Origin: Warburgia ugandensis
Taxonomy: Eukaryota; Streptophyta; Magnoliopsida; Canellales; Canellaceae
Assembly: GCA_035236585.1 (NCBI GenBank)
Contig: CP141137.1
Coordinates: forward strand, 11,114,327 to 11,178,326
Direction: 5' to 3'
Length of the DNA: 64,000 nt
Part shown: piece by piece, positions 1 to 60,920 of the stretch
How the letters are laid out: every line of letters starts with the position of its first letter
Position numbering within the stretch: the stretch's first letter is position 1
Position numbers and translations under genes: made by a program
The notes under the pieces: generated by a model
Told to the model about the DNA's origin: nothing
Database searches by the model: none
The model's input: only the letters and a program-made list of their open reading frames with translations

Positions 1-429
1 CTTTAGGTTTTGCTCTTGTGGAAACGTTCACTGAATGCTTTGAATGTTGTTAGAAGCGAGGCTTTTGCAGTATAGGTCAGAGGAAACAGAAATTCATCTG
101 ACATACTACTAACATATTCACATTCTTATTTGTTGTTCTGCTAAAAACCATTCTTCTTCTGGTGTTTATGCTGCCATTTGTCATGTTAACTATTATATCA
201 GACGAGAACGAGAAGAGAGGCTTAAGTGGTGAACAGTTGTTAATGTGAAACCATAGTTATATAAAATGGGAAACCTGGTAGTTTTACCTTCAGGCACTGA
301 ATTTTATTGTTGGTTTTCTGTGATTCTTTTGTTTAAGTTGTGCAAGCAAGAGTTATGAAATTTGACAAGGTTCTTATTTATTCTTGCTTCGCTTTTCTGC
401 TAGTATTATTTATATAACTGATTTTGTAG

Positions 430-468
430 GTAGTATGAAAAGCAAGAGCATTGCCCTGATCATCATAG
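430..468 (+). CDS. Candidate exon 2 of receptor kinase gene A
   Basis: A 39 bp segment flanked by a 3' splice site (TTTTGTAG) and a GT donor encodes, in phase 1, GSMKSKSIALIIIG. It aligns in length, phase and sense with exon 2 of gene B (30365-30400, GDGKQHVKKVIIG), which joins the ectodomain exon to the membrane-kinase exon. It ends ATCATAG|GT as gene B's ends ATTATAG|GT, so it can splice in frame to the kinase exon at 10573. The resulting intron would be about 10.1 kb, carrying a solo LTR and LINE pieces. This is inference from homology and splice phase; no transcript is available. The ectodomain exon would lie left of the window. Confidence 0.5.
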
Positions 469-2198
469 GTCTTCTACTGCTCAAGTCCGACTTGTTTGTG
501 TCATAATAATATCTTAGTAATCATTCTCTAAACTTTTTAGCTGCCTAATGAAAAGGGTGGAGGTCAAAGCTTCTTACCATAAAATAATTTCATGTTGATC
601 CATATCTTGTTTATTTCTGATGGAAAACCTCATTATTTTGTTCTTAATGCTTCAGTGATAAAAAAAACTTAATCTTCTTTAAACATAGGGGTGGTCAGTA
701 TATCTCTGACTTTATTAGGATTAATTTAGCATCCAACAGAACCTCTCTAGAAGATGGATCCTCCTATCTCCCCCATTTGTGAACCATTCGATAGATGGGC
801 TGTATTGGATCATCTCCATAAAAAAACACTTAACAGTAGTTGGTTAGGAAGAAATTATTAATACTCGAAGGTCTATATTCAAACAGAAAAAGTTTACTGA
901 TCAAATTGGATGGCTAGGTTGCAAAATTCTAGATGCAGAAAGACAGGACCCTCTTTTTAATCAGTTCCTGTCTTTCTGTAGGCCTTTTTAGCCGTGGTCC
1001 TTTTACCCTCCAAAGAATCTCATCTAATAAACTGTTGCTAGACATCCTATGTTGAGTTATTCATGATCTAATAAAATGGCAACGAAAGCCTATGAGCCAG
1101 GCTCTTTATGCAAAAGGTTAATTTAAGTTGTTCAACAATCATTTGGTAAAATATTTTTGAGAATTGACTCAATTTGCTTGCATATTTAGTCAAGTTTTCA
1201 GTTTGGCTTGGATAGTGCAGAGTGTAATTCGAATCATGGGAATCAATTGTCTGAACATGAGTAACAAACATCTGTAACTTGATGGGTACTGAATGACATC
1301 TATAAAAATATGAAAAGTTTTCATTTATATTGGAAAGAGGTAGATAAAAGTTCTTTCAAAATTTATGATTTCTTCCTCTGTTAGAGGTATTCCAGAAATG
1401 TCTATGATCATATATTGCTATTTTTGTTTAAGGTAGAACTGAATTGGCATTAAGTCACTAACAACCCTGCCTCACGTTCCAGTTGCGTTTTTAAAATTTC
1501 AAATTCTTTAGTCATTGATGTTATATATAGAAGATTCTTACTCAATTGCATTTTTTGAGATGCTATATGATTTTCCCTTGATTTTATGCTTCATTTAATT
1601 TCTGCTTATTTTAACTTTGCTTGATGATTCCGCCCTTGAGCCTGGAATCCTTGTCTATGTTAGCATTCTACCAGCAAAAAGTAAGCCCTTGATTTTTGTT
1701 GGATTGCCTTGGGGATGACAAATCCCTTTCACATGACCAAATCTGTGTATGTTGCTGTTATTGGATTTATAATTCAACAATCTTCATCCTACAGCATGTC
1801 ATGAATTGTCTCACAACCAAGGGGTTGAGAGTCCAAGTCACTGCTTAGCCCAAGTGGTCCTAGGAGTTTATCCATCAGGCTAGATCCAAAAAGTGCTGCC
1901 TGTGGTATCTGGTCAAAGATGATTAAGCCATTGTTGCAGAACTTTGCTTCTCAACGTACCAAAAAGGGTTACTTTGATAACTCAGCACTTTGAAAATCTG
2001 CTGTAAAGGTTAGAATCAAAAGAACATCCTTGATTTGGAAGGAAGTTGTTGCAGGGAATTTTTTTAAACCTTGAGCAAATATAATGCGAAGACAAAAAAT
2101 TCACCAATTCTTTAGTCTTAGAGGTTGTTATTACATTTACTTAGACTTCTTTTTCTGGTAACTCTATCTTCTAGAGAGTAATCAGGTGAGTATGAGTG
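469..2198. other. Probable intron DNA, no gene seen
   Basis: AT-rich sequence without a convincing coding frame. From 1048 it is homologous to 46385-47554, the older third copy. It would be the start of the long intron 2 of gene A if exon 2 at 430-468 is real. Confidence 0.5.
936..978. other. 13 bp perfect inverted repeat (hairpin)
   Basis: CAGAAAGACAGGA at 936-948 is followed after 17 bases by its exact reverse complement at 966-978. The loop is T-rich. It is kept in the right-hand copy at 57297-57339. No function is assigned; it is too short and isolated to call a miRNA precursor. Confidence 0.6.
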
Positions 2199-2930
2199 TG
2201 TGACACCCCGGGTTTTTATACACACTAGAATAATAATTTCCAAAACTAGTCGGGATCTTTGTTTTTTTAAAAAAAACTTTGATTTCTAAAGTGACCAAAA
2301 ATAAAAACTTAAACAAAAGCATTTCTTTCAAAGTCCGGGGAGCCATACAACCACAAAACTACGGATTTAACAGTGAAATGAAATACTATTTCCACCGAAA
2401 ATCCGACAGAGTTTCCTCTGTAATTTGGACCATTGCACATGACCAGTGCAATACAAAATCACCTAATAAACAATGTATAATACATACCATAAAGGAGATT
2501 CAGTCTCCACACCCATCCACAACCAAATGTTGTTTTCAATAAAATATACTCTAACAATGGATAAGAAAATATAGCCACTACCAAATACCCAGGCTCCCTC
2601 CATACAGCCATCACATCCAACGTAAATCCACATTCTGACGTCCAGGTCACATTACATTTTTAATTAAAGTACAGTCTATATTCAAAACCCAAAGTGAGGT
2701 CTTGAGAAAACTTGGTCATCTCTGAACATCGTCCATGTTTCGCTAGAAACTGCCATCACTTTTACCTGCTATGTCAGCGCGTCAACCTGTTGTCACTCTC
2801 TGTATCTGAGGCATTGCAAATCAAAGCAATGCCTCAGCAAGCTATGCTTGTGTAGGTGATATACATTCAAAGTAAAATCAATAAAAACAAATCACATGGC
2901 GCAAGGCATAAGATCGTAAGAGGATCAAAC

Positions 2931-2953
2931 ATATATATATATATATATATATA
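2931..2953. repeat. (TA)n microsatellite inside the solo LTR
   Basis: An uninterrupted TA run of about 23 bp. The matching run in the right-hand copy (about 59291-59308) is shorter, so the two copies have already diverged here. Confidence 0.9.
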
Positions 2954-3159
2954 AAGCCTTAAATCACACGATGAAGGACATACCAAGTCCATGAAACAAA
3001 TAAGATATCATCAACCATGATATCAGGACATGCACAATTCGAGAAAATCTAAAAACACATGAATGCATGTCAAAAGTATCGAACATCATACACTGTCAAG
3101 CCCTATGAGTGTCTCAAGTACACTCATGGCAATGTGGGGTCAGCTCTTTGTACCATTCG

Positions 3160-3312
3160 CTTTCACCCTTGCACCCTCACGGGCACTCAGGCACTTACGG
3201 AACAATGCGTTCTACTTTCCCTTTCACCCTCACGGGCACTCAGGCACTTAGGCACTCACAAAAAGTCGCGTTGCACACCTGCTTTTACCCTCATGGGCAC
3301 TCAGGCACTCAC
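3160..3312. repeat. Short degenerate tandem repeats inside the solo LTR
   Basis: Repeats built on CACCCTCACGGGCACTCAGG recur three times here. The right-hand copy at about 59520-59618 has one unit fewer, which accounts for most of the 58 bp length difference between the two LTR copies. Confidence 0.8.
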
Positions 3313-4617
3313 GGGGTGAAGAAATGCATCCTACCACAGGATCAATAGTCTCAAATATCAAGTCAGAGTGACTCCCACATGTCAAAAAGACTAACAATCA
3401 AGTGAATATCACGAAAGATATCAAAAACAGTGCATGCAATAACCATCAGAAAGATAGCACGCACATGAGAAGCTACATGCTGAAATCAATCTCATGCATA
3501 TAGTAAGGCATAAATCACATGCCTCAAAAACTCAAATCACCATTTGAGAATCATGGAAAAATTGTGAATGAAATCACCTACCTCAATATCGCACTATCTC
3601 AAATGAACGTGTAAACAATATTGAGGTGTATGCCCTGATGTACCTGCCATGCTATAAATCATGTCATGGTTAACGCATATAACCAAAATCTAAAGCCTGA
3701 TCATCTATTAATCGGCTTAATATAATCATTGAATAATGCTTAGTAGTTTGGCTAATAAAAAGCTACTCAAAACTAGATTTTTGTCTTAAATCTAGGTCCG
3801 CCTTGATGAGACGATCACAATGCCTCTTTCGAATAATGATTTGGACCTCTGTAGCTCTTAAAATCACGTTTTTATACATAAGGGGTCAAAAAACCCAAAA
3901 AAACAAGAAAAAGGACCCGTCGCACGTGTGGCGCGTGCCCCGCGCGTGGCACTCCCTCGTCCGCTTGTTTTCTTCCTGGTGTGGGTTGCTGTTGTCGGGA
4001 ACGACGACTGGACTGGTTCGCTGTCGCCGGCAACCCCAGGTGCTCCGTTTTTTGCGAATTTTACACCTATGTGTCTAGTTTTTCACTTACATTCTATTTT
4101 CACAAATTCATTCATTTCCTACCGTTTTTTTTCATGATTTTTGTTTCATTTCTAAAAACCTTTACTATTTTTGGGGTTTTCCGGCGTCTCCAGCTGTCCG
4201 ATCTCCATGAAACTTCATGGGTCTGTTTCATGCATCATCACATATAGGATGAACGGCCCAGATCCTCATCTGGCACCGTTCCATCTACTTATTTTGAAAA
4301 CAATACTAATGCACCTCTTCACCGGAAAATGGCAATCCACGCCATTTTCGGGCGCTAAAACAATGAACAAGCACAAAAAAAAAAAAAAAGCATGGGGGTT
4401 GGCCTACCTCAATCTAGTTGGCCACTCCCAATGGCCTTCCGAAGATTTATGGCGTCCTCGGTGTGAATTGGCCCGGGAAAGCATCGCCGGTGGGTCAGTT
4501 ACGGGATAAGAGAGGAAAGGGAGGGAAGTGCATTTGAGCACTCCCCCTCTTAATGTTTTCCTATTTACATCATTTTTCATTTCAATTTTTTTTTAAAATA
4601 GTGGATATTACAGAGTG

Positions 4618-6041
4618 ATGTTTTGAAAAAGAAGGTTTTAATTTGAGGTGGACAGAGGTGCATGATTTGTTGCCCTTGCTTTGATTCTAGTGGATTCTAT
4701 ATTCCTAATGCAGAAGGTTCTGGTGAGGCCCTCCCTGTTTGTACAGCCACGAACGTCATATCTTCTATCCTTGTCATGGTAAGATGTGGTGTTACTTGTT
4801 TATTCTTCATCGCCCTTTACTGGTTCTCTTGTTGATCTATGGCTTTATTCTACTTAAATTTTTTTGTTTTCATATTTGAAACAGGCATTGACTTGCTTCT
4901 GTTTTCATCTTGACACTCTTATTCTCTATTTTGCACTAGTAACAAGACAAGTTTGGACTTCTAGATTTAGGGGAAGTCCCATGATCAGAAAATATTGCAT
5001 CTCCCTCTCCCTTAAGTTGTCACTTTGCAGCCAAGTTTTGGAGTTCTTAACTATATGCCTATTAGGCTTCTAGTTGAACTCTGATATTCTGTGGCATTCT
5101 GCGGATTTCTGTACGATTTTAGACAGTCCAGTTGCTGATGAGTTTAGCTTTAATTGGATGATTCTGAAAACAACTCAGAATTCTCTGTCTATTTTACTGT
5201 GTCTCGCCAGCTTAAAGAAGGTTGTTGATTTTTGTTAAAGTGTCTTGTTGATTAAAAACATATAGGTTGCCCGTTGATTAAATACTTCTATTCTAGAAAA
5301 TTTTAAGGTTTGTAGATACCAAGGAAAGCACAGGAGATCAGAGTATGGATATCAGACACCATAGATTAGAATCAGTACGTTTTAGACAGTTAAGTATAGG
5401 ATGACAAGAACTTATGGTCATTCACACCTGCACATTCCTTATCGCAATCTAGCAAATAAGTTATCAAACCGTTTAGAAGATTTAATTGTTGTGTGTTCAT
5501 GCATATTTTCTCTGGAAAAATATGATATCGAAGAAATGCTTACAGTTAACCTCGGTTTGGTAAGTGCTTCCTTGCACAATCAATAGGTATTGTGTTCAAG
5601 TCCATTCTCAATTTAAAAGGAAAAAGGTCCACATAAGAGCCAATTAATTTGTTCAATGATCAAATCATTGTTGGCCCTTGTTGTAAAAGATGAGCTGCAT
5701 TCTCCCTCAAGATGATTCCATACACTTTTGTAGAAAGCCCTGCTGATGAATTAAGACTCTTTCCTTGTTATTTCCTATTTGAAGGCAACATATTAGATAA
5801 TTAGAATATTAGGTATAGGACATCCAGTTTTAGTTAGTTTTTGTGTACAAAATTAAAATAGTTACTGCAACTTTTATGTCTGACCCAAAATTTTCTATTA
5901 TTGAAATATGAGGATCCATCTATATTACTGCCCATCTGAGCTTATTGGTCGACTAAGTACGTGAGCTTTTATGTTGAGAGATCTCCAGATAAAAGGCCTA
6001 GATCACAGTTAATGCAAGTTTGATATTGTTAAAAACTTAAC
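4618..6041. other. Probable intron DNA, no gene seen
   Basis: Non-coding sequence homologous to 47555-48440. A 500 bp stretch at 5071-5570, bounded by GCTTC on both sides (5066-5070 and 5566-5570), is absent from that paralog, where a single GCTTC remains. No coding signal is evident. Confidence 0.6.
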
Positions 6042-8150
6042 TCATCATCATTAAGACCTTATCCTGATTAGGGGTTGGCCACATGAATCTTGTTCCTCCA
6101 TTTCCCTCTATTAAGCACCATGGGTTTTATTTAGTCCCAATGTTTTTAAATCTTTTCTCACCACTTCTACCCACGTTCTTTTTAGCCTTCCCCTTGCCTG
6201 TTTTGAATCTTCGACATGCATTGCCTCAATCCTTCCATTCGTTGCCATCTTTGGTCTCCGTTACCTATTGGTGTTACTCCTAAGTTTCCTCAAATGTTTT
6301 CATTCCTGATTCTACCCTTTCTTGTCTTTCCACTCATCCATCTCAACATCTTCATTTTGGTTACGTTCATCCCATGTATATGATGTTACTTAACAGCCCA
6401 ACACTTTAATACGTAGAGCATGGCTGGCCTTATAGCCATCCTATAGAATTTTCCTTTCAGTTTGAGTGACATCCGCTAATCACATAGACCTCGATAGGTG
6501 CATCTTCATTTGTTCCAGCCCGCTTGGATTCTTTGGGTAACCTCTCTCTCAATCTCCCCACCTCTTGTGAATCATCTAGTCTAAGTACTGAAAGTGGTCT
6601 TTAAGAAGACTTCTTGGTTATCAATCTTTATTGGTACTCCACTCCTGCTTCTTTATCTGCCAAAATTAGATTCCATATGCTCTGTATTAGTTCGGCTGAT
6701 TTTAAATCCTTTAGATTCTAATACTTCTTTCCATAACTCTAGCTTTGTATTTACACCCTTCCTTGTCTCATCAATTAAAAATATATCGTCTGCAAATAAC
6801 ATGCACCATGGAATCTCCTCGTGTAGATGTTTTGGTAATCCATCCATAACCAACGTGAAAGGGTACGGGCTCAATATCGATCCTGAGTGCAATCTATATT
6901 GGTAACAAATTCACTGGTCTCTCAGCTAGTGGTTTTAACATTTGTTATCGTTCCCTTCATACATATCTTTAATTATGTCTATATATCCTTGTGAAACCCC
7001 TTTCTTGCTCAACACCAACCATATCAACTCTCTAGGGACCCTATCATGTGCTTTTTCTAAGTCAATAAAGACCATTTTGAGCTCCTTCCTTCTCTCCTTA
7101 TGTTTCTCTATCAACTGTTTAAGCAGGAAAATAGCTTCCATGATAGACCTTCCAGGCATGAGGCTAAATTGGTTCTCTGATACACTCGTCTCATGTGGTA
7201 ATCTCTTTTAAATCACTCTTTCAAAAAGTTTTATAGTGTTTCTCATAAGTTTGAGCCCCTGGTAATTAGTGTGGCTTTGTATATCTTCTTTATTCTTATA
7301 AATTGCTACAATAAATCTCTTTCTCCATTCATCCTAATTTTCTTTGATTTTATTATTTGTTAAACGACTTTGTCAACTAAATTGCTTTAGTATCTCCCAT
7401 ATCCTTCCAAACCTCTATTGGTATATCAACAAGCCCTAGGACCTTTCTTGATTTCATATTTTTCAAGACCTCTTTTACTTTAGGTATTCTAACCTTAAAA
7501 TCATATTTATAATGTCCAATGTTATTTGGGTTTACAGTACTTTCAATCCATGTATTTTTAGGCAATTATCATTTAGCAATTTTTGCAAGTAATTTTTCCA
7601 CCTTTGTTTGACCTCGTCATCTTTGATTAGTATCCTTTGATCTTCACTTCTAATGCACTTAGGGTGGTCTAAGTCTTTACCCTTCTATTCTCTTATTTTT
7701 TGCAAGTTTAAACACATCTTTCTCACCTTCTCTTGATTGTAATATATTATAAAGATCATCACATGCCTTGAGTTGAGCCTCACTTACTATTCTCTTTACA
7801 ACCTTCTTAGTATTCTTATATTGCTTAAAGTTTTCGTTATTTCTAGTTAACTTCCATGCTTTAAAGTACACATGTTTTTCTTTAATAACTTTTTGTACTT
7901 TTTTACTCCACCACCAAGTTTCCTTTATTCACTGCCTTTTAGCTTTAGATACTCTTGAGGACATCTTTTGGCAATTTCTTAATGGGCTTGGCAATATTAA
8001 TCCACTTGGTGTTTACTTCTGTTTCATTGTTCCAGTTTACTTCTACCATCAACTTGTTTGTCGATTCTATTAAATAGATCCCAAAATCTCCTAGTCCTTT
8101 CTTCTTTCTTCTTACTCCATAGAATTATGTTCCTAGAATCACCTTCAATC
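6042..8150 (-). mobile_element. RTE-clade LINE, 5'-truncated
   Basis: Read on the minus strand this is the 3' half of a plant RTE-type non-LTR retrotransposon. The 3' end is at 6042, with an ATGATGATGA-like tail preceded by the GTGGCCAACCCCTAAT...GGATAAGGTCTTAATG motif typical of the family. Reverse transcriptase pieces are visible: [14 protein letters not shown] and [16 protein letters not shown] near 6935-7159, and [17 protein letters not shown] plus the catalytic box WCMLFADD near 6653-6892. The connecting region (KHVYFKAWKLTRNNENFKQY) lies near 7677-7890. The endonuclease is missing and the frame is broken in several places, so it is dead. The right edge is approximate. The same insertion is in the right-hand copy from about 62345. 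Confidence 0.85.
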
Positions 8151-8289
8151 ATGAGAGGTTACTATTTCCACCAAGTTCATACCACGATACTAGTGATTAA
8201 TGCTCATACTTGTTCTTCAGCTGAATCATAAATACCTATGGAGCCTGAGAAATCCAAGAGTCCAGACCTTCATGATTAGATAACACCAC

Positions 8290-9200
8290 TAGACCCTGCG
8301 TTAAAGTAACAGTTTCCATTGAAGTTCAGTAAGAAACTGTTTGCTGATGGAGGCTTCCATCTCTGTTTGCAAATGCTCTTTCTCACAGGATTCTTAATGA
8401 TGTTATTCTGGTCCCTCAGAAATGTATCCTCTGTATACATTGAGAAGCCCTTAGAGCAAGATGCCCAGAATGCAGCTCCATGTCAGTTCAATTCTAAGAG
8501 CGGGATGCTTACTTCTGCTGTTAAAGCATCTTGAGTTCCTTTTAAGATACAAGTTCCAAACTGTTGAGATGAAACATAAATTCCAAAGTAGTTTGTCTCC
8601 AGAATTTAGTTTAACACCTGTCCATTAATTGAAAAATTCTTCAATATTAGAAGGGATGAACCAAGCCATTCAAACTTATTTGAGCATGCTTGCCAGATGG
8701 TTTTGGCAACTGGGCAATAAAACATTATATGGCCTCTATCTTCCTCACTCTTGTTGCATGCATATCAGAATGAAGAGCAACACATACCTCTCAATTTTAA
8801 CTTATCAAAGCTAAGAATCTTGTTAAGTACGAGAGTCCAAGAGAAGAAGAGTACCTTGTGTGGAGCAGAGGTATTCCAAATCCACCATGCAAACTTCCAT
8901 ACTTCATTTTTAGTACCAGCTACATGTAAATAGATTTAATTATAAATTTTCTGAGGACTAGGGATCCAAATGATTATATTTTGTCTAGCTGGATCAATGA
9001 AGGTTTTTGCTTATCTTCTAAGGGAAGCTGTTCCTGTTCTAATCCAGCCAAGGGTCTTCTTAGAGGTATATTCCAGGTTGGATTATTGTTTGTGGAGCTG
9101 TAACAATCGGCTTCCCAAGAAGCCCACCAGAATCTTACTTTATAACCAGAGTAGACCTTGAGTTTTACTTGTTCTCTAAAGAACTGTAACTGTTTAGCCG
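8290..9200 (-). pseudogene. zf-RVT-like fragment of a LINE or RNase-H-like protein
   Basis: On the minus strand around 8800-8900 the translation reads KFAWWIWNTSAPHKVLFFSW, continuing TLVLNKILSFDKLKLRGMC. This resembles the zinc-binding region (zf-RVT) found downstream of reverse transcriptase in plant L1-type LINEs, whose usual pattern is ...W..PKV..F.W......L.T...L..RG...C. A further stretch near 9090-9140 (KVRFWWASW) fits the segment that usually comes before it. Stops interrupt the frame. It lies in the putative long intron of gene A. The family assignment is from memory of the pattern and is moderate. Confidence 0.5.
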
Positions 9201-10031
9201 TTGATCATGTTAGGAATGCATAGATGGGCTAGACATTAAATCTAATGCCCTTGGATGGTTTTAGCCCATGTTTCTTTAGGTAAAAGATTGCATCCATCCA
9301 ATTTTATGAATTTTGTAAAAAAGGTTTTAATATACATGAAAATGTGGCATGTACATCTTCCTCTCCTCTGGAGCTTGTATTCGTGGGACTCTATTAAGTA
9401 TGTAAGAAGGTTAAAAAGAAATCAATATCCTATATGATGAATGGGTACTGTGCAGTACAAACCCATTAGTGGAAATAGCAAAACCCATAAATTCAGCATT
9501 GACATCTGTCCCATAATTGCACCATATAGACCCCCTATCACGAATACAAGTACATTTTCTTGCATATTGATGAAGCTGTTTGAAAATTGATTCTGATGTC
9601 TGTGGATCGGGGAACATTTTCATTTTACGTCCATTAATAGCCATCTGATCAAATCGATAATGTTACAATTCATGCAACATTCATCTTCTCTGCAAAAAGG
9701 ATTGATAAATAAAATCTGATCCATTGCAGATCCGGATCTAAATGGATTATATGCACTGTATCTGTTTTTTAAACAAATGAAATTATTCCAATCCGTATCT
9801 GATCCACATCTGGCTAACGGATTCACGGATTCACGGATACATACATACATACTATTGAATTCTTCTTGCGAATTTGGCAGGTAACTTGGGAATAATCAGT
9901 CATGTTTGAATCGAATTCTCCCATGAATTTTGTCTACACTACGGCCCATAAGCCACTCATTGGTAGTGGCACAAATAACCTCCTATATCTTAGAAAAAAA
10001 ACTTTCTAACATGTATAGTCGTCAAATGATA

Positions 10032-10214
10032 AGAAGGGGAGCCTTGGCACAACAATTGAGTTGTCGCCGTGTGACCTTGAGATCACACGTTCTAGGTGTG
10101 GAAACAGCCTCTTGCAAAAATGAAGTTAAGGCTGTGTACTATAGATCCTTTGTAGGCTGCCCCTTCCCTAGACCCCATATATGTGGGAGCTTTATGCACC
10201 AAGCTGCCCTTTTG
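10032..10214 (+). mobile_element. Au-like SINE
   Basis: A tRNA-derived SINE with the plant Au pattern: GGGGAGCCTTGGCACAAC at the 5' end, a GTGTGACCTTGAGATCACACG B-box-like region, GGAAACAGCCTCTTGCA, AAGGCTGTGTAC and a CCCTTCCCTAGACCCC segment, ending in CCCTTTTG. It is flanked by a 16 bp target duplication, TAGTCGTCAAATGATA at 10016-10031 and TAGTAGTCAAATGATA at 10215-10230, with one mismatch. The sister block has the uninterrupted site at 31586-31601, so this SINE inserted after the A/B block duplication, inside the last intron of gene A. Confidence 0.93.
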
Positions 10215-10572
10215 TAGTAGTCAAATGATAGTCAATATCATCTTATTATTGAAACAAAAAAGGACTATATTATATTCTTTTCTTTAAATCCAACTTTCTT
10301 AGGGTTTCCTTTTTAAATGGATATCCACATGCATTTGTGTGGTCACTGATTTAATAGATTGGATTGTTTTGATCCATCTAAAAGTCATTTATTCACTCCA
10401 CATCTACCGATTTTACAGAGTTTGGATGGATAAATGATGTTGGTGAAATTTAGTCCGTTTAATAGCTCTTTCACTAGCTTTGGTTGAACCTGCATGTCAC
10501 GCATATAGACTGATATTAACAGTAGGATAATGTGCATGCTGCGTGGTTGATCTTCTCTCGTTTTTCTTTCAG

Positions 10573-11720
10573 GCATCACAATAGCAGTTGCGGGCTTGCT
10601 TCTATTTTGCCTCCTTGCCTTTTTCTCTAAAATAATCTTCTCTAGAAGACAATTCTTGCCATATAATTCAATATTCTTTTGGAAGAAGAAAGCAAACGAG
10701 GCTTGCAATGTGGAAGTTTTTCTTAGAGAATGTGGATCGCTTGCTCCAAGAAGATATAGCTATTCAGAACTAAGGAAGATGACTAATTCCTTCAAAGAAA
10801 AACTAGGCCAAGGAGGATATGGTGCTGTTTTCAAAGGGAGGCTTCCTGGGGGTTGTCTTGTTGCCGTAAAGGTTTTGAGCGAATCCAAAGGCAACGGCGA
10901 AGAATTCACGAACGAAGTTGCTAGCATAGGTAGGACTTACCATATCAACGTTGTTAGACTCTTAGGCTTTTGTGTCTACAGGTCTAAGAGAGCACTTGTG
11001 TACGAGTTCATGCCAAATGGATCTTTGGAGAAGTTTATATACAGTGACAAACCAAGAAAAACACCACCTTTGGGCTGGGAGAAGTTACACCAGATCATGA
11101 TTGGTATTGCTCGAGGACTGGAGTACTTGCACCGTGGTTGTCACATGCGCATTCTGCATTTTGACATAAAACCTCATAACATTCTTCTAGATGAAGACTT
11201 TTGTCCTAAAATCTCAGATTTTGGACTGGCCAAGTTGTGCCCTGGGAAAGATAGCATCATATCAATGACTGGTGCTCGAGGGACAGCTGGATATATTGCC
11301 CCCGAGGTATTCTCTAGAAATTTTGGAGGTGTCTCTCACAAATCTGATGTTTATAGCTTTGGAATGATGACACTGGAAATGGTAGGTGGAAGAGAGAACA
11401 TTGATCCGGCAGTGGAGAATACCAGCGAAATATACTTTCCACAGTGGATATACAAGCGGTTGGACTTGAGAAGGAATCTAGGAGTCTTCGGTACCAACAC
11501 AGATGAAGAAGAGAGAACAGCGAAACAGATGATCATGGTGGGTTTGTGGTGCATACAGACAAATCCCGCTAATCGACCTTCAATGAGTACAGTGGTTGAT
11601 ATGCTAGAAGGAAGCCTTGAGAGCTTAGAAATGCCTCCAAAGCCATTTTTATCTTCTCCTACAAGATCAAGCGAAGATACATGTACCGAGCTGCAGAGTA
11701 TAAGTGAAGAAATTTCTTAG
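10573..11720 (+). CDS. LRK10L: LRK10L-type receptor kinase, membrane and kinase exon (gene A)
   Basis: This is the last exon of an Lr10-like (rust resistance kinase) receptor kinase acting at the plasma membrane. The 3' splice site TTTCTTTCAG precedes 10573, and no usable ATG lies at the exon start, so upstream exons are needed. Numbering from codon 10596: a membrane helix at about 1-15, a basic juxtamembrane stretch, the glycine loop GQGGYG at 71-76, the ATP lysine in VAVKV (K92), Glu in helix C (E107), the catalytic loop HFDIKPHN at 188-195, DFG at 208-210 and APE at 235-237, with a full C-lobe to the stop. HFD instead of HRD makes it a non-RD kinase, a class often tied to immune signalling. 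All key residues are present and the frame is open. A compatible exon 2 is at 430-468; the ectodomain exon is outside the window. Gene B is its closest visible relative. Confidence 0.85.
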
Positions 11721-12288
11721 ACGAGTTATGTGTGGAGAATATTAACAAGTCACGAGCTATAGGCAAAATCCTACCATGTCAAAAACTGCAAATTAAAGAT
11801 CGTTTATGTAAATACTCTTTCCTTTCTGGCTCTTTGATGGTAAATGATTCGACTAACACTACCCATTGCAGTTAAAAGTCTTCTCCTTGTAATTACGGCT
11901 GACTAAATGGTAAGAAAAACTGTAACTCAAGTGGCCTCGGGGTTCTGAACATTCAAATTGTTCACAATGTTGCTCTTAACTTGGATGGGTGTGCTCTGGA
12001 TTCTTATGCATTGGATGAGCCTAGCAATCACTACGTGTATTTGTAAAATAGATGGTAAGTCTTCACATCCATTTTACAACTGAAGAAAACAATAGCTAGG
12101 ATCATTCAAGAAAGGAAACTTTTGTAACATGACCCATCAAAGAAAAGATTGTGAATGATTTGGATTTTCTAAAATTTTTGCCCTCCTTGAGTTAGTGTTC
12201 TTACCATTCTGGTGTTTAGGCCCCCCCCATTCAACCTTCTTAATAGAGTCCATTTTGCAGTTGCTTGAGGCACTGGGCATATTCCCAT

Positions 12289-29334: not shown

Positions 29335-32300
29335 ATGGATCTAGCTCTCCCTTCCTTCCTTCGGTCTGTATTTCTGCTTCTATTTTACTTTCCTCTTTCT
29401 TCAGCCCTAGAAGACAATTTCAACAAATGCCCTTCATTTCGCTGTGGAGACCTTGCCGACATCAGATTTCCATTCTTCAATGTCACTCAGCCGGACTGCG
29501 GAGTCTTCGGTATCCATTGTCGCGGCAGAAGGCCACAGATCACATTCGGAGGAAAACATTATGTCATCAAGAACATTTCATATGAACAACACAGATTCAT
29601 AGTTCAAGACAGTGAAGTAGAGCATCTCCCCGGGTCCAAGGTGTGCGATTTCCTTATGAGTAATTTTACAGTATCACGAGACGACCTCCTACAAATTAGA
29701 AGCAGCCCCAACATTACCTTCTACAAATGTAAGCGTGATCGATCTACCATTCCTCGCAATACCACTTTAGATGTCCGCAATTACACACTTTGTGAAGAGC
29801 ACAATTTGTATTACACAAGAAATAAGAATCTTGGAGCCCAATATCTTCCAAGTAATTGCACCATTGTCGAGTTTCCGGTGTTTCAGTCTTGGAAAGTTTG
29901 GGAGAGCGGCGATCGTGATTTGTCATCTATATTGACTGCCGGTTTTGCTCTTCAATGGAATATTCACCCGCAGTGTCAGGAGTGTTTCATGAATGAAGGT
30001 GTATGCATTTTAGACGAAAGTAACAAAAGCTTCAAATGCCAAGGTACGTATTTTCAGTTTTCTTATGCACAGAATGACATAACTATAGGCTCCTCTTTCA
30101 TGTGCAATCCAATTGCAGTTTTGAGTTCGGTCCTTAATTTAGTAAGTTGGTATTTAAAGACCCAGTAGGAACCAAATTCAAGGTGTCCCTAGAGATGGAC
30201 TAGCCACTTTAAGGAGCTGCTGTTACATGGTGGTTTGGTCTTTAATTTAGGTACAATCTAAGTTAAAAGGATTTCTCATCTGAAATAGCAGCTTTCGATG
30301 GATTTATGTTGGAGATTTACGTCCATATTTTCTGCTAATCTTTCGCTTCATAATGATGTTGCAGGTGACGGAAAGCAGCATGTAAAGAAAGTCATTATAG
30401 GTACTCTGCCGCTGACGCCCTTCTTTGAATTTTTATCATACCCTCTTCCCATTTCTTCATGCACCTGCCCAATATACTTTTTCAGTTTTCCTCATATTAG
30501 TATAAATTCTCGACGCCGACACGTTGGCCAACTAAGTGGGTCATTGCCAATCGATAATTATGTTATGTAAAGATGCATTTAGATAGGTTTAGGGGTGAAT
30601 CGTTGATTATCCATCTCGTTCCTCTCACTGCCTCGGCTTTGAACATTTGGTATTGCAGTTTGTGTCGATCGGATTGTTGTACTGAAAAAACTGTAGGTTT
30701 TATCACAAGATAGGGACGGTTAGAAACTTCTATAAACGATTGTCTAAATTCAGCTCCCAAACATACGGCTCTTAGGCTGTCAGGATCATTTGAACTGTTT
30801 TGATTTTTTATTACAAGGCACCCAAAACACAGCTCTCTTCGTGCACAAGGCAGTGTGCTTCTAGAGAAGGTCTTTATAGGGTCTTGCTCATGTTTTTATA
30901 AGATGGTTTTTTCCTGTCTTTTTAATCATATTTTGTTAAGATGGCTTTTCTTAATTGTCTTCTTAACTAAGTTTTTTAAGACAGTTTTTTCTAACTGTCT
31001 TTTTTATTAGTTTTTTAAGACAGATTTTCCTAACCATCTTCCTAAACATGTCCTTTGAGATTGTTTTTGAAAAACTGTCATACAAAATTGTATTATATAA
31101 AGTAGTTTTTGTGGAACCATCTTAGATTTATTTTAATTAGATAGTTACATAATAATCGTCTTTTTTTGCAGTCTTAGAAAACACTATTTTTAGTAGTGTA
31201 GACCTAGCAACATTCATCTCGTCATCAAAACGTATCAACAAATCAAATCTGATCCATTGCAGATCCAGATCTAAACTAATTAGGTGCACTATATCTGTTT
31301 TTTTAAACAGATGAAATAAGTCCAATCCATATCTAATCCACATTTGGATAATGGATTCATAGATAATCTGGAATAATATAAATAATATATATGTACACAC
31401 ATATATACACACAAATTTGATTATTATTGAATTCTTCCAGTGAATTTCCCGAGTGGTTTGGGAATAATCAATCATGATGGAATTGAATTCTCTCATGATT
31501 TTTGTTTAGACCATGGCTCATAAGGCACTCATTGGTATAGTAAAAATAACCTCGTAAATCTTAACAAAAATCTTTTCAAAATGATTAGTAGTCAAATGAT
31601 AGTAAATATCTTCTCATTATTGAAACAAAAAATTTACTTTCTTTTCTTAAAGTCTGACTTATTTCAAGTTTTCCCTTCCAAATGGATATTTACGTATAAC
31701 TTTGTGTGGGTCACTGATTTAAAGGATTGGATTATTTTGATCCATTTAAAAGTAATTTCTTCATTCCACAGCCATGGATTTTACAGATTTTAAACAGATA
31801 AAAGGGTGTTGGCACATTTTAGTCCGTTCTAATAGCTATTTCACTAGCTTTGGTAGAACCTGCGAACATGTCACACATGTAGAAGATATTAATAGTAGGA
31901 TATGGTGCATACTGCTTGGTTGATCTCCTTTAGTTTTTCTTTCAGGCATCATAATAGCAGTTGCAAGCTTGCTTCTATTCTGCCTTGTGTTTTTCTCTCT
32001 AATAATCTTCTGTAGAAGACAATTCTCGCTATATAATTCAATTTTCTTTTGGAAGAAGAAAGCAAACGAGGCTTGCAATGAGGAATTGTTTCTTAGAGAA
32101 TATGGATCGCTTGCTCCAAGAAGATATAGCTATTCAGAACTAAGGAAGATGACTAATTCCTTCAAAGAAAAACTAGGCCAAGGAGGATATGGTGGTGTTT
32201 TCAAACGGAGCCTCCCTGGGGTCGTCTTGTTGCCGTAAAGGTTTTAAGCGAATCCAAAGGCAACGGCGAAGAATTCACGAACGAAGTTGCTAGCATAGGT

Positions 32301-33074
32301 AGGACTTACCATATCAACGTTGTTAGACTTTTAGGCTTTTGTGTCTACAGGTCTAAGAGAGCACTTGTGTACGAGTTCATGCCAAATGGATCTTTGGAGA
32401 AATTTATATACACTGACAAACCAAGAAAAACACCAACTATGGGCTGGGATAAGTTGCACCAGATCATGATCGGTATTGCTCGAGGACTGGAGTACTTGCA
32501 CCGTGGCTGTCACGTGCGCATTTTGCATTTTGACACAGAACCTCATAACATTCTTCTAGATGAAGACTTTTGTCCTAAAATCTCAGATTTTGGAATGGCC
32601 AAGCTGTGTCCTGGGAAAGATAGCACAATATCAACGATTGGTGCTCGAGGCACAGCAGGATATATAGCCCCCGAGGTATTCTGTAGAAATTTTGGAGGTG
32701 TCTCTCACAAGTCTGATGTTTATAGCTTTGGAATGATGGCATTGGAAATGGCAGGGAGTAGAAAGAACATTGATCCCGTTGTGGAGAATACTAGTGAAAT
32801 ATACCTTCCACAGTGGATATACAAGCGTTTGGACTTGAGGGGGGATCTAGGACTCTGCGGTATCAAAACAGATGAAAAAGAAAGAACAGCGAAAAAGATG
32901 ATCATGGTGGGTTTGTCGTGCATACAGACAAGTCCCGCTAACCGACCTTCAATGAGTACAGTGGTTGATATGCTAGAAGGAAGCCTTGAGAGCTTGGAAA
33001 TGCCTCCAAAGCCATTTTTATCTTCTCCTACAAGATCAAGCGAAGATGCTTGTACCAAGCTGCAGTGTAAGTGA
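29335..33074 (+). pseudogene. LRK10L: LRK10L-type receptor kinase with three exons, inactivated (gene B)
   Basis: Exon 1 (29335-30043) encodes a signal peptide of about 25 residues, a GUB_WAK_bind domain (FRCGDLADIRFPFF, PDCGVFGIHC) and a WAK_assoc domain (NCTIVEFPVF, CQECFMNEGVC). Exon 2 (30365-30400) encodes GDGKQHVKKVIIG and exon 3 (31946-33074) the membrane helix and kinase; all junctions are GT-AG in phase 1. Compared with gene A, one base is lost near 32217, between the glycine loop and the ATP-lysine, which breaks the kinase frame. The catalytic loop reads HFDTEPHN where A has HFDIKPHN, so the catalytic-loop lysine is gone as well. DFG (as DFGMAKL) and APE remain. A two-base difference near the end changes the tail and stops it early. 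Introns are 321 and 1545 bp. A truncated, kinase-less receptor could still be made, but a working kinase could not. Confidence 0.9.
30890..31197 (-). mobile_element. CACTA-like DNA transposon end, in intron 2 of gene B
   Basis: The minus strand starts CACTACTAAAAATAGTG at 31197, a CACTA-type terminus. It is followed by alternating direct and inverted copies of an AAGACAGTTTTT.CTAACTGTCTT-like word, the subterminal repeats usual for plant CACTA elements. A matching left terminus was not found, so only one end is identified. The element ends about 10 bp before the kinase-block homology with copy A begins. Confidence 0.55.
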
Positions 33075-33539
33075 AGAAATTTCTTAGACGAGCTATATAT
33101 GGAGAATATTAACTGGTCACGAGCTAATGGCAAAACCCATCCATGTCAAAAACTGCAAATTTAAGATCTTTTATGTAAATTCTCTTTCCTTTCTTGGTCT
33201 TGATAGCTTTCAAGGAAAATACTTACAATGCAACTAGGCACTAGAGCAGGTGGTATAGAATAACAAAAAAAATTTAGAATAGGAGATGTGTCAATCAGTG
33301 GATCCGCCTGACTCAAGAGCAGAGCCAGTGTAGCTGTAGTGCATACACTATTTGATGGTAAATTATTCAGCTAACACGACCCATTGCAGTTAAAAGTATT
33401 TTCTCTGTAATTTGTTAGGGCAATGACTAAATGGCAAGAATAGCTGTAACTCAAGTGGTCTCAGGTTTCTGAACATCCATATTGTTCACAATGTTGCTCG
33501 TAACTTAGATGGGTGTGCTCGATTCTCATGTATTGGATG

Positions 33540-37784: not shown

Positions 37785-38565
37785 ATGAGCTCTTTCCAAA
37801 TGCATCCATGGCTAGTGAGATCAGTTCTCTATCTCCACCTGTTTTCTTTCATTCTTCAAACTTCCTTCTCCCAAGATGGAGGATATACGGAATGTTCACC
37901 TACCCAAATTCCCTGCGGATCTCTCTTCGAAATCAGATTTCCTTTCTGGATCCAGGATCGATGGTCTAATTGCGGTTATCCTGGTTTTAGACTCACCTGT
38001 GAAGGAGATAATACGCTTGTAACAGAGATGCGTGGTCAGAAATACCATGTTAAGGCTATCGATTATGAGAACCAGATCGCAACAGTTGTCCGTAAGGACC
38101 TGATAGGCAAGACATGTCCTCTACCTTCAGATAACACCACTCTAGACTTCTCTCGATTTGGATATGCTCCTGGAGTTGTCAATGTCACCATATACCACGA
38201 CTGCTCTAGCCCCATTTCAGATGGATACTATGCGGGCTTCAGCCTTCTCCCGTGCTTCTCAGGTGCTTACTTTACAATGGGAACACCAGTACCTCCAGAT
38301 ACCGGAAATGTTTTTGGAAACTGCAGGGCTACAGTGCTTTCAATGTTCCAATTGGATGTGCGTCGAGTGGTGGAAATCCAAAGTCACCTGAGCGAAGTTT
38401 TGGAGGGCGGCTTCAATGTGACATGGACCGTAGGGACTGGTTGGTGCAGCGAATGCCTTAGTAGTGGTGGCTATTGTGGTTACACGGTCGATCCTGAACT
38501 AGCTATATGTTTTTGCACTGATCAACCACATTTGAGAACGTGTCTAGGCCGCCCTATCAGCACAG
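37785..38565 (+). CDS. GUB_WAK_bind/WAK_assoc ectodomain exon, orphan (locus D)
   Basis: An intact exon of 260 codons plus one base. It has a signal peptide of about 29 residues (MSSFQMHPWLVRSVLYLHLF onward, cut before QDGG) and a GUB_WAK_bind domain at about 35-110 (CGSLFEIRFPFW, CGYPGFRLTC), presumed to contact cell-wall pectin. A WAK_assoc domain follows at about 160-258 (NCRATVLSMFQ, GGFNVTWTVGTGWCSEC, SGGYCGY, CFC). The first ATG is used; a second in-frame ATG is at 37800. It ends AGCACAG|GTACG, a phase 1 donor as in genes B, C and E. Read through, the frame would add nine codons before a stop at 38589-38591. No exon 2 or kinase exon was found before gene C, so it is either the front of a receptor whose kinase was lost, a secreted wall-binding protein made by read-through, or a gene with a very long intron. 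No frame damage is seen. Confidence 0.85.
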
Positions 38566-46384: not shown

Positions 46385-48440
46385 ATTTCCTATGTTGTGT
46401 CCATAAGCTAATAAGATGGCAATGAAAACCTGTAAGCATTGTGTGGTAAGCCAGGCTCTTTATGCAGAGGGTGCCATACTTAGGCTGCCATACATTAGAT
46501 TAATTTAATTTGTTCGACGATCATTTGGTTAAGTATTCATGGGAGTTGACTCAATTGGCTCGGTATTTAGTCAAGCCATTAGTTTGGCTTGGATAGTGCA
46601 GAGTGTCATTTGAGTCATGGAACTCAACTGTATGACCTCTAACATAAGTAACAAACATTAGTAACTTGATGGGTACTGACTGATATCTATCAAGTTATGA
46701 AAAGTTTTCATTTATATTGGAAAAGAAGTTGACAGTAAATTTATGATTTCTTCCACTGTTAGAATTGCTCCAGAAATGTCTACGATCATGTATTGCTATT
46801 TTTGTTGAAGGTAGAACTGAGTGGGATCGAGTCACTAACAACCCTGCCTCATGTTTGAGTTACGATTCTGAATTTTGAAATTCTATTGCCATTTTAGTTG
46901 CAGATAGAAGATTCTTACTCATTTGCACTGTTTGGGATGTTGTATGATTTCCCTTGATTTTATACTTTGTTTAGCTTCTACTAGTTTTAACTTCGATTGA
47001 CGATACCACCGTTGAGCCTGGAATCCCTGTTTGTGTTAGCATTCCGCCAAGAAAAAGTAAGTCCCTCATTTTTGTTGAACTGTCTTGGGGATTACAAGTC
47101 CCTTCCACATGGACCAAAGCCATTATGTTTCCCGTTACTGGATTTATAGATTCAACCATACAACACATAATGAATTGTCTCACAACCAAGGGGTTATGAG
47201 TCCAAGACACAGCTTAGACCAAGTGGTCGTACCAGTTCAACCATCAAGCTAGATCCAAACAGTACTGCCCATGGTATCCTGTCAAAGATGATTAGCAGAA
47301 ACTTGGCTTTCAATGAATAAAAAAGGTACTTCGATAACTGAGAAATTTGAAATCTGCTGTAAAGATCAGAAGCAACAGAACATCCTTGATTTGGAAGGAA
47401 ACCTTTGGAGGGCATCTTTCTTAAACCCCAAGAAAATATAGTGTGAAAGCAAAATTTTTATCAATTCTTTGGACCTACAGGTTGTTGTTCCATATAGTTA
47501 GACTTCTTTCTTTGGTAACTCTATCTCTTGAGTGAAATCAAGGGAGCATGAGTGATGTTTCAAAAAGCAGGTTTCAATTTGAGGGGAATGGAGGGGCATG
47601 ATATTTCTCGCCCTTGCTTTGGTTTTGGTGGTTTATGTAGTTCTAATACAGGCGGTTCTGGTGAAGGCCCTCCCCGTTTCTACAGCCACCAACCTCATAT
47701 CTTTTATGCTTGTCATGACAAGATGTGTGGTGTTACTTGTTTATTCTTCATCACCCTTTACTAATTCTCTTGTTGAACTAGGGTTTTATTCTACTTAAAT
47801 TTTGTATTTTGAGATTTGAAACTGGCCCATCCTCCGCTTTGTACTACTAACAAGACAAGCTTGGATTTCTAGAACAAGAGGATGTCCCATGATTAAAAGA
47901 TATTGTCTCTCTCTTAAGTTGTCCCATTGCAATCAAGTCTTGAAGTTCTTAAACTATGCACCCATTAGGCTTCCTTACAAATCAAGAGGTTGTAGTTTCA
48001 AGTCCATTCTCGATTTAAAAGGAAAAAGGTCTCCGTAGAGCCTATTAATTTGTTCAATGATCTAATCATTGTTGGGCCTTGCTGTGAATGATGAGCTGCA
48101 TTCCCCCCTAGATAATTCCTTAAAATTTTGTAAAAGCTCTGCTGACTAATAAAGACTCTTTCTTGTTATTTCCTATTTGAAGGCAACATAGATATTTAGT
48201 TTTAGGTGTAGGTCGTCTAGTGTTAGTTGGTTTTGTTAACAGCATTAAAGTAGTCGCAGTGACTTTTATGTCTGACCCAAAATTTTCTATTATTAACATA
48301 TGGGGATCCATCCATATTACTGCCCATCTTAGCTTATTAATCAATTAAATACATTAGTTTCTCTGTTGGGAGATCTCCAGATAAAAGGCCCAGATCACGT
48401 TCAATGCAAATATGATGTTGTTAAGAACTTTAACCTTCAA
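46385..48440. repeat. Older third copy of the large duplicated intron region
   Basis: Diverged but clear homology to 1048-2198 (here 46385-47554) and 4618-6040 (here 47555-48440) and to the right-hand copy. It lacks the 2.4 kb solo LTR (single GAGTG at 47550-47554), the 500 bp stretch matching 5071-5570, and the RTE LINE. It therefore preserves the ancestral state for three events. No exon was recognised in it. Confidence 0.88.
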
Positions 48441-50159: not shown

Positions 50160-50913
50160 ATGATTCTTCACTGGTTACTGTTCAAAACCTTATTCTTCTT
50201 ACTAGATGCAGCTCGTTCATTTGACCCACAGTTTGAGAATTGCAGGCCTGCTACTTGTGGAAAACATAACATAAGCTTCCCATTTTGGATCGATGACCAG
50301 CCAAGTTACTGTGGATATCCAGGCTTTCATGTCACCTGCAGAAATCAGAGTGGCCCTTATCTTGATCTGTCCGAAGACAACTCCTACCATATTAGAGAAA
50401 TCTTTTACCATAACAATTCAATTTCACTCCTTGGCACTGAATCCTCGTCAACTGAAGCATGCCCAGTTTCCCTTCATAATCTCACTCTTGATAGAACTCC
50501 GTTTTATCTTACTAGAGCCACCCAAAATCTCTCCTTATTCTTCAATTGCACTGGGAATCCACCTCCTACGTTCCGTCGAATTTCTTCTTGCTTGACAAAT
50601 AACAAGACAAAAAACGCTTATTACTCCCTATCCCCGATCAACGAAGAGACGGTGATGAAATTTTCCAGAACCTGTGGGTCCATTGTTATTGCACCAGTTA
50701 CGAGTCGAGAGCCTTACGATTCTGCAAATTTAGATCCTACCGTTCTTTTGAGGAGGGGGCTTGTTTTGGGATGGATTGCTCCGAATTGCAGCGACTGTCA
50801 AGAGAGCGGTGGACGGTGTCGATATAATGAGACATCTCTTCAATTTTTCTGCTTTTGCTCAAACCGTCCTCGTCTCGAAGTATGCTCTAGTCATCCGGCT
50901 CCTAAAATACAGG
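50160..50913 (+). CDS. GUB_WAK_bind/WAK_assoc ectodomain exon (gene C, exon 1)
   Basis: An open exon of 251 codons plus one base. It has a signal peptide of about 21 residues (MILHWLLFKTLFFLLDAARS), and a GUB_WAK_bind domain at about 26-105 (CRPATCGKHNISFPFWIDD, CGYPGFHVTC, EACPVSLHNLTLD). A WAK_assoc domain follows to about 245 (GSIVIAPV, LGWIAPNCSDCQESGGRC, FFCFC, LEVC). It ends CAGG|GTTCG in phase 1; the donor is less canonical than GTACG in the sister genes. Candidate exons 2 lie at 53412-53447 and 56791-56829, after which the sequence repeats the intron leading to gene A's kinase. The kinase of gene C is thus predicted right of the window, near 56361 plus 10573. It is probably the extracellular part of a wall-sensing LRK10L-like receptor. 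Confidence 0.85.
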
Positions 50914-53411: not shown

Positions 53412-53447
53412 TTGGGAAGAAAGGCAGGAGCACTCCGATCATTATAG
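53412..53447 (+). CDS. Candidate exon 2 in R1
   Basis: 36 bp between TTTTGCAG and GTATTCG encode VGKKGRSTPIIIG in phase 1, the same length as gene B's exon 2. If used it would join gene C's ectodomain to a kinase exon outside the window. A competing exon lies at 56791-56829. Confidence 0.5.
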   Translation: MGRKAGALRSL

Positions 53448-55878: not shown

Positions 55879-56790
55879 TGTGTGTTTTTTCTTTCATTTC
55901 TGAAAGGCACAGGACTCGTTGTTAAAGACAAGGCTTGTGTATAGTTAAGTGGTTGAAGCATGTGTTTGCTCAATCTAATAGTTAGCAATATAGTTCCATC
56001 TTAGACTTCTAAATGCAGACACAAGTACTGAAAGTAAAATGTTTCGACCAAAATTGAAAGTCACATCATGAGACAACGCATGGAATCTTTCAAGCTGGAT
56101 GCAGGACTGATCTGACTCTCTTTACCTTCAATTTTTCATCTCAAATACAGTTGGCTGTGGTCACATCTCCAATTTCCTGCACCATCATTGCAGTCTCTTT
56201 CCGTATTTCTTTATTTAAAGGAGTCACTGGTTGCAAAACCCTATTACCTGCAGATTTCTACCACCTCAATCTTTTGTGTGATTGCTTGGTTCTCAGTTTG
56301 TCCGTGCGTCCACCATGATTCGACCAATATATGTCGGAAGCTGTCCTCTTATATCTGCTTGCTTTAGGTTTTGCTCTTGTGGAAAGGTTCACTGAATGCT
56401 TTGAATGTTGTTAGAAGCGAGGCTTTTGCAGTATAGGTCAGAGGAAACAGAAATTCATCTGACATACTACTAACATATTCACATTCTTATTTGTTGTTCT
56501 GCTAAAAACCATTCTTCTTCTGGTGTTTATGCTGCCATTTGTCATGTTAACTATTATATCAGACGAGAACGAGAAGAGAGGCTTAAGTGGTGAACAGTTG
56601 TTAATGTGAAACCATAGTTATATAAAATGGGAAACCTGGTAGTTTTACCTTCAGGCACTGAATTTTATTGTTGGTTTTCTGTGATTCTTTTGTTTAAGTT
56701 GTGCAAGCAAGAGTTATGAAATTTGACAAGGTTCTTATTTATTCTTGCTTTGCTTTTCTGCTAGTATTATTTATATAACTGATTTTGTAG

Positions 56791-56829
56791 GTAGTATGAA
56801 AAGCAAGAGCATTGCCCTGATCATCATAG
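56791..56829 (+). CDS. Candidate exon 2, right copy
   Basis: Identical in sequence and splice signals to 430-468 (GSMKSKSIALIIIG, phase 1). It would serve gene C, whose kinase exon is predicted beyond the window. Confidence 0.5.
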
Positions 56830-58559
56830 GTCTTCTACTGCTCAAGTCCGACTTGTTTGTGTCATAATAATATCTTAGTAATCATTCTCTAAACTTTTTA
56901 GCTGCCTAATGAAAAGGGTGGAGGTCAAAGCTTCTTACCATAAAATAATTTCATGTTGATCCATATCTTGTTTATTTCTGATGGAAAACCTCATTATTTT
57001 GTTCTTAATGCTTCAGTGATAAAAAAAACTTAATCTTCTTTAAACATAGGGTTGGTCAGTATATCTCTGACTTTATTAGGATTAATTTAGCATCCAACAG
57101 AACCTCTCTAGAAGATGGATCCTCCTATCTCCCCCATTTGTGAACCATTCGATAGATGGGCTGTATTGGATCATCTCCATAAAAAAACACTTAACAGTAG
57201 TTGGTTAGGAAGAAATTATTAATACTCGAAGGTCTATATTCAAACAGAAAAAGTTTACTGATCAAATTGGATGGCTAGGTTGCAAAATTCTAGATGCAGA
57301 AAGACAGGACCCTCTTTTTAATCAGTTCCTGTCTTTCTGTAGGCCTTTTTAGCCGTGGTCCTTTTACCCTCCAAAGAATCTCATCTAATAAACTGTTGCT
57401 AGACATCCTATGTTGAGTTATTCATGATCTAATAAAATGGCAACGAAAGCCTATGAGCCAGGCTCTTTATGCAAAAGGTTAATTTAAGTTGTTCAACAAT
57501 CATTTGGTAAAATATTTTTGAGAATTGACTCAATTTGCTTGCATATTTAGTCAAGTTTTCAGTTTGGCTTGGATAGTGCAGAGTGTAATTCGAATCATGG
57601 GAATCAATTGTCTGAACATGAGTAACAAACATCTGTAACTTGATGGGTACTGAATGACATCTATAAAAATATGAAAAGTTTTCTTTTATATTGGAAAGAG
57701 GTAGATAAAAGTTCCTTCAAAATTTATGATTTCTTCCTCTGTTAGAGGTATTCCAGAAATGTCTATGATCATATATTGCTATTTTTGTTTAAGGTAGAAC
57801 TGAATTGGCATTAAGTCACTAACAACCCTGCCTCACGTTCCAGTTGCGTTTTTAAAATTTCAAATTCTTTAGTCATTGATGTTATATATAGAAGATTCTT
57901 ACTCAATTGCATTTTTTGAGATGCTATATGATTTTCCCTTGATTTTATGCTTCATTTAATTTCTGCTTATTTTAACTTTGCTTGATGATTCCGCCCTTGA
58001 GCCTGGAATCCTTGTCTATGTTAGCATTCTACCAGCAAAAAGTAAGCCCTTGATTTTTGTTGGATTGCCTTGGGGATGACAAATCCCTTTCGCATGACCA
58101 AATCTGTGTATGTTGCCGTTATTGGATTTATAATTCAACAATCTTCATCCTACAGCATGTCATGAATTGTCTCACAACCAAGGGGTTGAGAGTCCAAGTC
58201 ACTGCTTAGCCCAAGTGGTCCTACGAGTTTATCCATCAGGCTAGATCCAAAAAGTGTTGCCTGTGGTATCTGGTCAAAGATGATTAAGCCATTGTTGCAG
58301 AACTTGGCTTCTCAACGTACCAAAAAGGGTTACTTTGATAACTCAGCACTTTGAAAATCTGCTGTAAAGGTTAGAAGCAAAAGAACATCCTTGATTTGGA
58401 AGGAAGTTGTTGCAGGGAATTTTTTTAAACCTTGAGCAAATATAATGCGAAGACAAAAAATTCACCAATTCTTTAGTCTTAGAGGTTGTTGTTACATTTA
58501 CTGAGACTTCTTTTTCTGGTAACTCTATCTTCTAGAGAGTAATCAGGTGAGTATGAGTG

Positions 58560-60915: not shown

Positions 60916-60920
60916 GAGTG

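Follow-up and report, generated by a model that had tools for sequence, protein, structure and literature searches.

Organization of gene A

The window examined here, a stretch of 64,000 nucleotides (G000:C12:11114327-11178326) within a 1.12-Gb genome of 14 sequences, belongs to a plant, as judged from its gene content, and contains part of a tandem array of receptor kinase genes, among them the gene designated A. Positions refer to the window unless prefixed with C12:, and negative numbers lie to its left; the seven array members that carry close kinase exons are named A, A2 (the duplicate of A), B, K1, K2, K6, and K7. The coordinates of the features are collected in Table 1. An initial annotation of the window had joined a short exon-like segment at 430-468 to a distant kinase exon and called for a search to the left for an ectodomain exon ending in G/GT. 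This search found the exon, which carries a WAK_assoc match (at C12:11108604) that scores above the cut-off and is separated from 430-468 by an intron of 5,827 bp. As claimed, the kinase exon is intact and open, with no ATG from its acceptor to the start of the kinase domain. It contains the whole C-terminal kinase domain (Pkinase, 5.7e-45, Pfam), for which sequence comparison places BAK1 and other plant receptor kinases nearest among kinases of solved structure, and as judged by eye it has intact-looking kinase motifs and retains a hydrophobic helix. The predicted phase-1 junctions also fit: joining exon 1, 430-468, and 10573-11720 gives an unbroken reading frame of 646 amino acids plus stop, joins made with either of the two mini-exons described below are free of stops, and those with both or neither are likewise in frame. 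A signal peptide and a single transmembrane helix in the joined protein were read by eye only.

The three-exon gene model is supported by the presence of the ectodomain exon, the duplication of the unit with all its parts, and the occurrence of mini-exons in front of the paralogous kinases. With a probability of about 0.78 we interpret gene A as an intact LRK10L/WAK-like receptor kinase gene of ~18 kb with three coding exons, the transposable element-filled intron being spliced out normally. The ectodomain exon, the mini-exon for the start of the transmembrane helix, and the exon with the transmembrane helix and kinase would then encode one receptor, transcribed, spliced over 10-13.5 kb, and presumably facing the cell wall. 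Placement among LRK10L-type genes is suggested by the ectodomain domains, the one-exon kinase, and the phase-1 mini-exon. Such a mini-exon is probably a mark of the LRK10L family, and Shin et al. (2015) reportedly name mini-exons in their title.

Exon 3 has its first in-frame ATG directly before the P-loop, a position from which the kinase exon might be expressed alone as a cytosolic, PSTOL1-like kinase unrelated to 430-468; a wheat PSTOL1-like gene is said to derive from LrK10 exon 3 (PMC13207577). For gene A we regard this as highly improbable, given that the open ectodomain exon and mini-exon have been retained together through a duplication, and that exon 3 keeps both its hydrophobic helix and the strong acceptor TTTTTCTTTCAG, which is found at all seven kinase exons of the array.

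Table 1. Features of gene A, its duplicate, and neighboring array members
Feature	Position	Strand	Remarks
Gene A exon 1 (ectodomain)	C12:11108175-11108928	+	open; ATG start; phase-1 G/GT donor; 5.4-6.2 kb left of window
Gene A exon 2' (second mini-exon), 45 bp	-2969..-2925	+	open; GCAG acceptor, GTATTC donor
Gene A exon 2 (mini-exon), 39 bp	430..468	+	open; phase 1-1; encodes GSMKSKSIALIII, start of transmembrane helix
Gene A intron 2, 10,104 bp, assuming use of 430-468	469..10572	+	acceptor TTTTTCTTTCAG
Solo LTR, 2,414 bp	2199..4612		target-site duplication GAGTG (5 bp); TG...CA ends; no internal region; copies elsewhere
LINE-like segment	6042..8061	-	limits from homology breaks, truncation inferred; RVT_1 pieces 6653-7207
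zf-RVT fragment	8606..8935	-	two pieces: 28.3 bits (over) and 21.7 bits (under Pfam cut-off of 27.5)
SINE-like dispersed repeat, ~190 bp	10030..10217	+	called Au-like in the initial annotation
Putative gene conversion tract, A2 like K2 and not A	10194..11886 (A coordinates)	+	A/A2/K2/K1 alignment
Gene A exon 3 (transmembrane helix and Ser/Thr kinase), 1,148 bp including stop	10573..11720	+	Pkinase match
Gene B exon 1 (different ectodomain type)	29335..30043	+	open
Gene B mini-exon, 36 bp	30365..30400	+	open; phase-1 mini-exon
Gene B kinase exon	31946..33087	+	frame-shifted
Orphan ectodomain exon C	37785..38565	+	open; CACAG/GTACGC phase-1 donor; without own kinase exon
Empty site of the solo LTR in a paralogous intron remnant (46497-48430)	47550..47554	+	remnant resembles gene A intron 2
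A2 exon 1 (ectodomain)	50160..50913	+	GUB_WAK_bind and WAK_assoc (Pfam)
A2 exon 2' (first mini-exon), 36 bp	53412..53447	+	counterpart of gene A -2969..-2925
A2 exon 2 (second mini-exon)	56791..56829	+	identical to 430-468
Part of tandem duplicate in window	56362..64000	+	matches window 1-7698; A2 kinase exon at 66900

Intron contents and duplication of the unit

Elements of the general kinds named in the initial annotation are present in intron 2, namely a solo long terminal repeat (LTR), reverse-transcriptase pieces of a long interspersed nuclear element (LINE, there called RTE), a zf-RVT stretch, and a repeat resembling a short interspersed nuclear element (SINE, there called Au-like). The solo LTR is identified by its ends, its target-site duplication, its repetition elsewhere, and the missing internal region, and relatives were found on many chromosomes (40 scored of 6469 candidates). 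A paralogous intron remnant has the corresponding empty site; a second difference of this remnant (~495 bp, 5070-5566) showed no target-site duplication at the lengths tried. The unit from -7518 to 15674 (~23.2 kb, including all exons) is repeated 56 kb downstream at 48788-72006 with 97.0% identity. Because no large gaps interrupt the alignment of the duplicate across the LTR, LINE, zf-RVT, and SINE stretches, the insertions predate the A/A2 duplication. Intron 2 would have been enlarged by the solo LTR, LINE, and SINE insertions before that event, and the long intron would have been inherited through it and spliced normally.

The kinase array and its mini-exons

Seven kinase exons, A's included, lie in C12:11.017-11.240 Mb and are 93-97% identical to that of A; four are open and three frame-shifted. 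The protein search that listed kinases scored 108 of 2064 candidates, and a very different kinase could be missed by it; tblastn with the A kinase (1e-6) over 200 kb plus 16.5 kb returned the same seven exons. Each is preceded by an open phase-1 mini-exon of 36-42 bp, and the introns between mini-exon and kinase measure 9,441 bp (K1), 5,063 bp (K2), 10,104 bp (A), 1,545 bp (B), 10,070 bp (A2), 1,536 bp (K6), and 12,751 bp (K7). With introns exceeding 9 kb in four of the seven members, the gene A intron is ordinary for the array, and B, whose intron agrees with the ~1.5 kb given earlier, is the exception. The segment 430-468 is confirmed as an open AG/exon/GT unit with phase 1-1 junctions, but the equal length that had been seen with exon 2 of gene B does not hold (39 and 36 bp).

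A mini-exon pattern matched seven times on the plus strand of 216 kb, each time upstream of one of the seven kinase exons, and gave no match on the opposite strand; the chance level is 0.3 per strand (mean of 20 first-order Markov sequences), although the test is partly circular, since A, B, and K7 served to shape the pattern. A profile built from ten mini-exons recovered its nine in-array training members; a degraded copy at 11229511 matched less strongly (E 3e-6), and the match after that has an E of 0.27. A relaxed search of the 78% identical C13 paralog gave a 42-bp mini-exon that precedes the kinase by 0.7 kb, and one further match behind the kinase is taken for chance. Since its close copies in the cluster are laid out similarly, gene A is probably a normal gene. 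Gene B and copy K6 (C12:11194065) both have frame-shifted kinase exons, though the ectodomain and mini-exon of B are open.

Two candidate mini-exons

The receptor with a ~10-kb intron filled with transposable elements is upheld by comparison among the copies, but its single mini-exon is not, for gene A has two candidates, of which 430-468 has the poorer donor. An older tandem copy of the mini-exon unit lies within intron 1, and its mini-exon, exon 2', sits 3.4 kb upstream of 430-468. Exon 2' may be used instead, leaving 430-468 as a decaying duplicate and a working intron of 13.5 kb, or both may be used alternatively, a refinement that is compatible with an intact receptor gene and to which we give somewhat less than an even chance. 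The tandem duplication of the unit favors it, as do the better-looking splice sites of exon 2' compared with the GTAG acceptor and GTCTTC donor of 430-468 and its A2 duplicate, and exon 2' stays open and in frame in both A and A2 although the BLAST alignment shows 2 substitutions in 36 positions and two gaps, one of 8 bp and one of 1 bp (9 in total). The 430-468 exon, however, is likewise open and is identical in A2 at 39 of 39 positions (31 of 39 in K7), and the open mini-exon of K7, which has one open and one degraded copy, resembles both mini-exon copies of gene A about equally (80% and 81%).

Gene conversion and selection

A and A2 diverge by 1.07% in intron 2 up to position 10193, by 4.38% in exon 1, by 3.66% in the kinase exon, and by 6.9% in the flank upstream of exon 1, and do not differ in the mini-exon 430-468. 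The two large coding exons are thus more diverged (~4%) than the intron (~1%), which points to exon exchange between paralogs. Within 10194-11893 of the alignment of A, A2, K2, and K1, 18 informative sites group A2 with K2 and 2 group it with A, whereas outside this tract it agrees with K2 at 5, with A at 98, and shows a third type at 1 (Fisher 3.3e-15, an optimistic value because the interval was chosen after viewing the table). The switch is sharp, with the last A-type site at 10193, the first K2-type site at 10403, the last at 11690, and the next A-type site at 11886, giving a tract of ~1.3-1.7 kb that covers the kinase exon. The kinase exons of K2 (C12:11081781) and A2 (66900) differ at only 11 sites, whereas their ectodomains share 29% amino acid identity (69/236). 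The kinase exon therefore appears to have been gene-converted between paralogs with very different ectodomains, and such conversion would keep the kinase exons alike while the ectodomain exons differ.

The ratio of nonsynonymous to synonymous substitution rates (dN/dS, NG86) is 0.23, 0.41, 0.42, 0.45, 0.55, and 0.57 for the six kinase pairs among the four open copies. For the ectodomain, 11 within-type pairs span 0.31-2.12, with Fisher p <0.05 only for the distant pair C/x11293 (0.31). The value of 2.12 for A/A2 was considered as positive selection and rejected (Fisher p=0.20); conversion or older divergence explains it equally well because the flank upstream of exon 1 is itself so diverged.

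The open frames and the kinase ratios make it likely that gene A is alive, as had been proposed, although several findings weigh against an intact, constrained receptor. The gene A ectodomain is without one Cys that is retained in all three E-type copies compared with it (A2, K7, and one on the minus strand). In the ten recent ectodomain pairs dN/dS is 0.58-2.12 and never significant, which fits relaxed constraint too, and with values near 1 ectodomain constraint is not visible in these pairs. Among ten mini-exons compared, a C at donor position +3, a base that is rare there in plants, occurs in 430-468 and its A2 duplicate alone. The A and K7 mini-exons differ at 8 of 39 positions, about the same as the surrounding 1.6 kb (81% identity), so that no constraint is visible on the mini-exon letters. 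No mini-exon was found up to ~5 kb upstream in pieces of three paralogs of greater distance, one on C3 and two at C12:10.8 Mb. The lost Cys and the unusual donor, together with the frame shifts in three of the seven array kinase exons, would suit a copy that died too recently for its frames to have decayed. We consider such a copy unlikely, given the intact appearance of the kinase motifs by eye and the dN/dS values below 1 in each of the six kinase pairs.

Surplus ectodomain exons

A genome search for WAK_assoc listed 30 matches, 20 of them on C12 at 10.92-11.31 Mb. Open frames of at least 270 amino acids hold 13 of these 20, compared with four open kinase exons of seven. When ectodomain stretches were read, 13 of 14 were open over their full length and had a phase-1 GT where one was expected, C'' (11289419) being broken; this proportion is no rate, because the stretches were mostly picked as already listed open, and further broken copies were seen. 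Open ectodomain exons that have a phase-1 donor but lack their own kinase exon also lie at C12:11212554, 11220050-11221050, and 11277900-11301400, and at least three open ectodomain exons precede K7. A broken copy of the K2-type ectodomain exon occupies 24896-25959, and minus-strand frames at 22706-23750 resemble, by eye, pieces of a copia-type retrotransposon polyprotein.

The excess of open ectodomain over open kinase exons raises the idea of a variable-first-exon cluster, in which several ectodomain exons serve as alternative first exons spliced to the same mini-exon and kinase; the sharers would be, for example, C (37785) and E (50160) for A2, and at least three ectodomain exons for K7. 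Orphan C has a phase-1 donor, and the nearest mini-exon downstream of it is that of A2 (200 kb scanned). Arabidopsis LRK10L3 provides a precedent, with peptide support for alternative first exons that place different ectodomains on the same kinase (PMC13136898). Against sharing, five of the 13 open ectodomain exons are on the minus strand of C12 10.92-11.31 Mb, a strand with no kinase exon among those listed by the two kinase searches, so an open frame does not require kinase sharing, and ectodomain dN/dS is near 1. We therefore hold this arrangement to be improbable, less so than the solitary cytosolic kinase, more so than a dead copy. Slightly more doubtful still is the fuller version, an array organized as a receptor cluster in which each ectodomain exon has its own promoter and phase-1 donor and is spliced across a long, transposon-filled intron to mini-exons and a few kinase exons that are shared, the latter being kept alike by conversion. 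If true, it would put many recognition heads on one signaling core, and kinase sharing among ectodomain exons would be a receptor-diversity mechanism.

Comparison with known receptor kinase loci

The long intron of gene A is ordinary for this array, and its length is of less interest than the converted kinase exon and the surplus ectodomain exons. In annotating such a cluster, one receptor may well be broken up into an ectodomain model and a separate kinase model. A literature search found no paper that brings together alternative first exons, extracellular domains, and tandem arrangement in receptor-like kinases, which says little.

Long introns rich in transposable elements are known in plants, in Vitis and conifers (PMC4108047), and gene A shows no essential difference from them. 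The order seen here, with the ectodomain exon or exons first and the kinase in the last exon, is a known one; wheat LrK10 has its kinase in the third exon and has transcripts that differ in their first exons (PMC13207577). The genes described here differ in their ~10-kb introns with transposable element insertions and in that A and A2 each carry a tandemly duplicated mini-exon. Arabidopsis LRK10L3 has the same modular arrangement of ectodomain exon and common transmembrane-kinase part, whereas here the ectodomain and kinase exons stand in a large tandem array, where sharing is only possible. Gene conversion or domain exchange among receptor kinases is described for the OAK cluster (PMC3136440) and the CRKs (PMC6368629), which likewise swap or convert ectodomain or kinase parts; in contrast to these, the tract found here covers the kinase exon and ends inside the long intron on one side and just downstream of the stop codon on the other.

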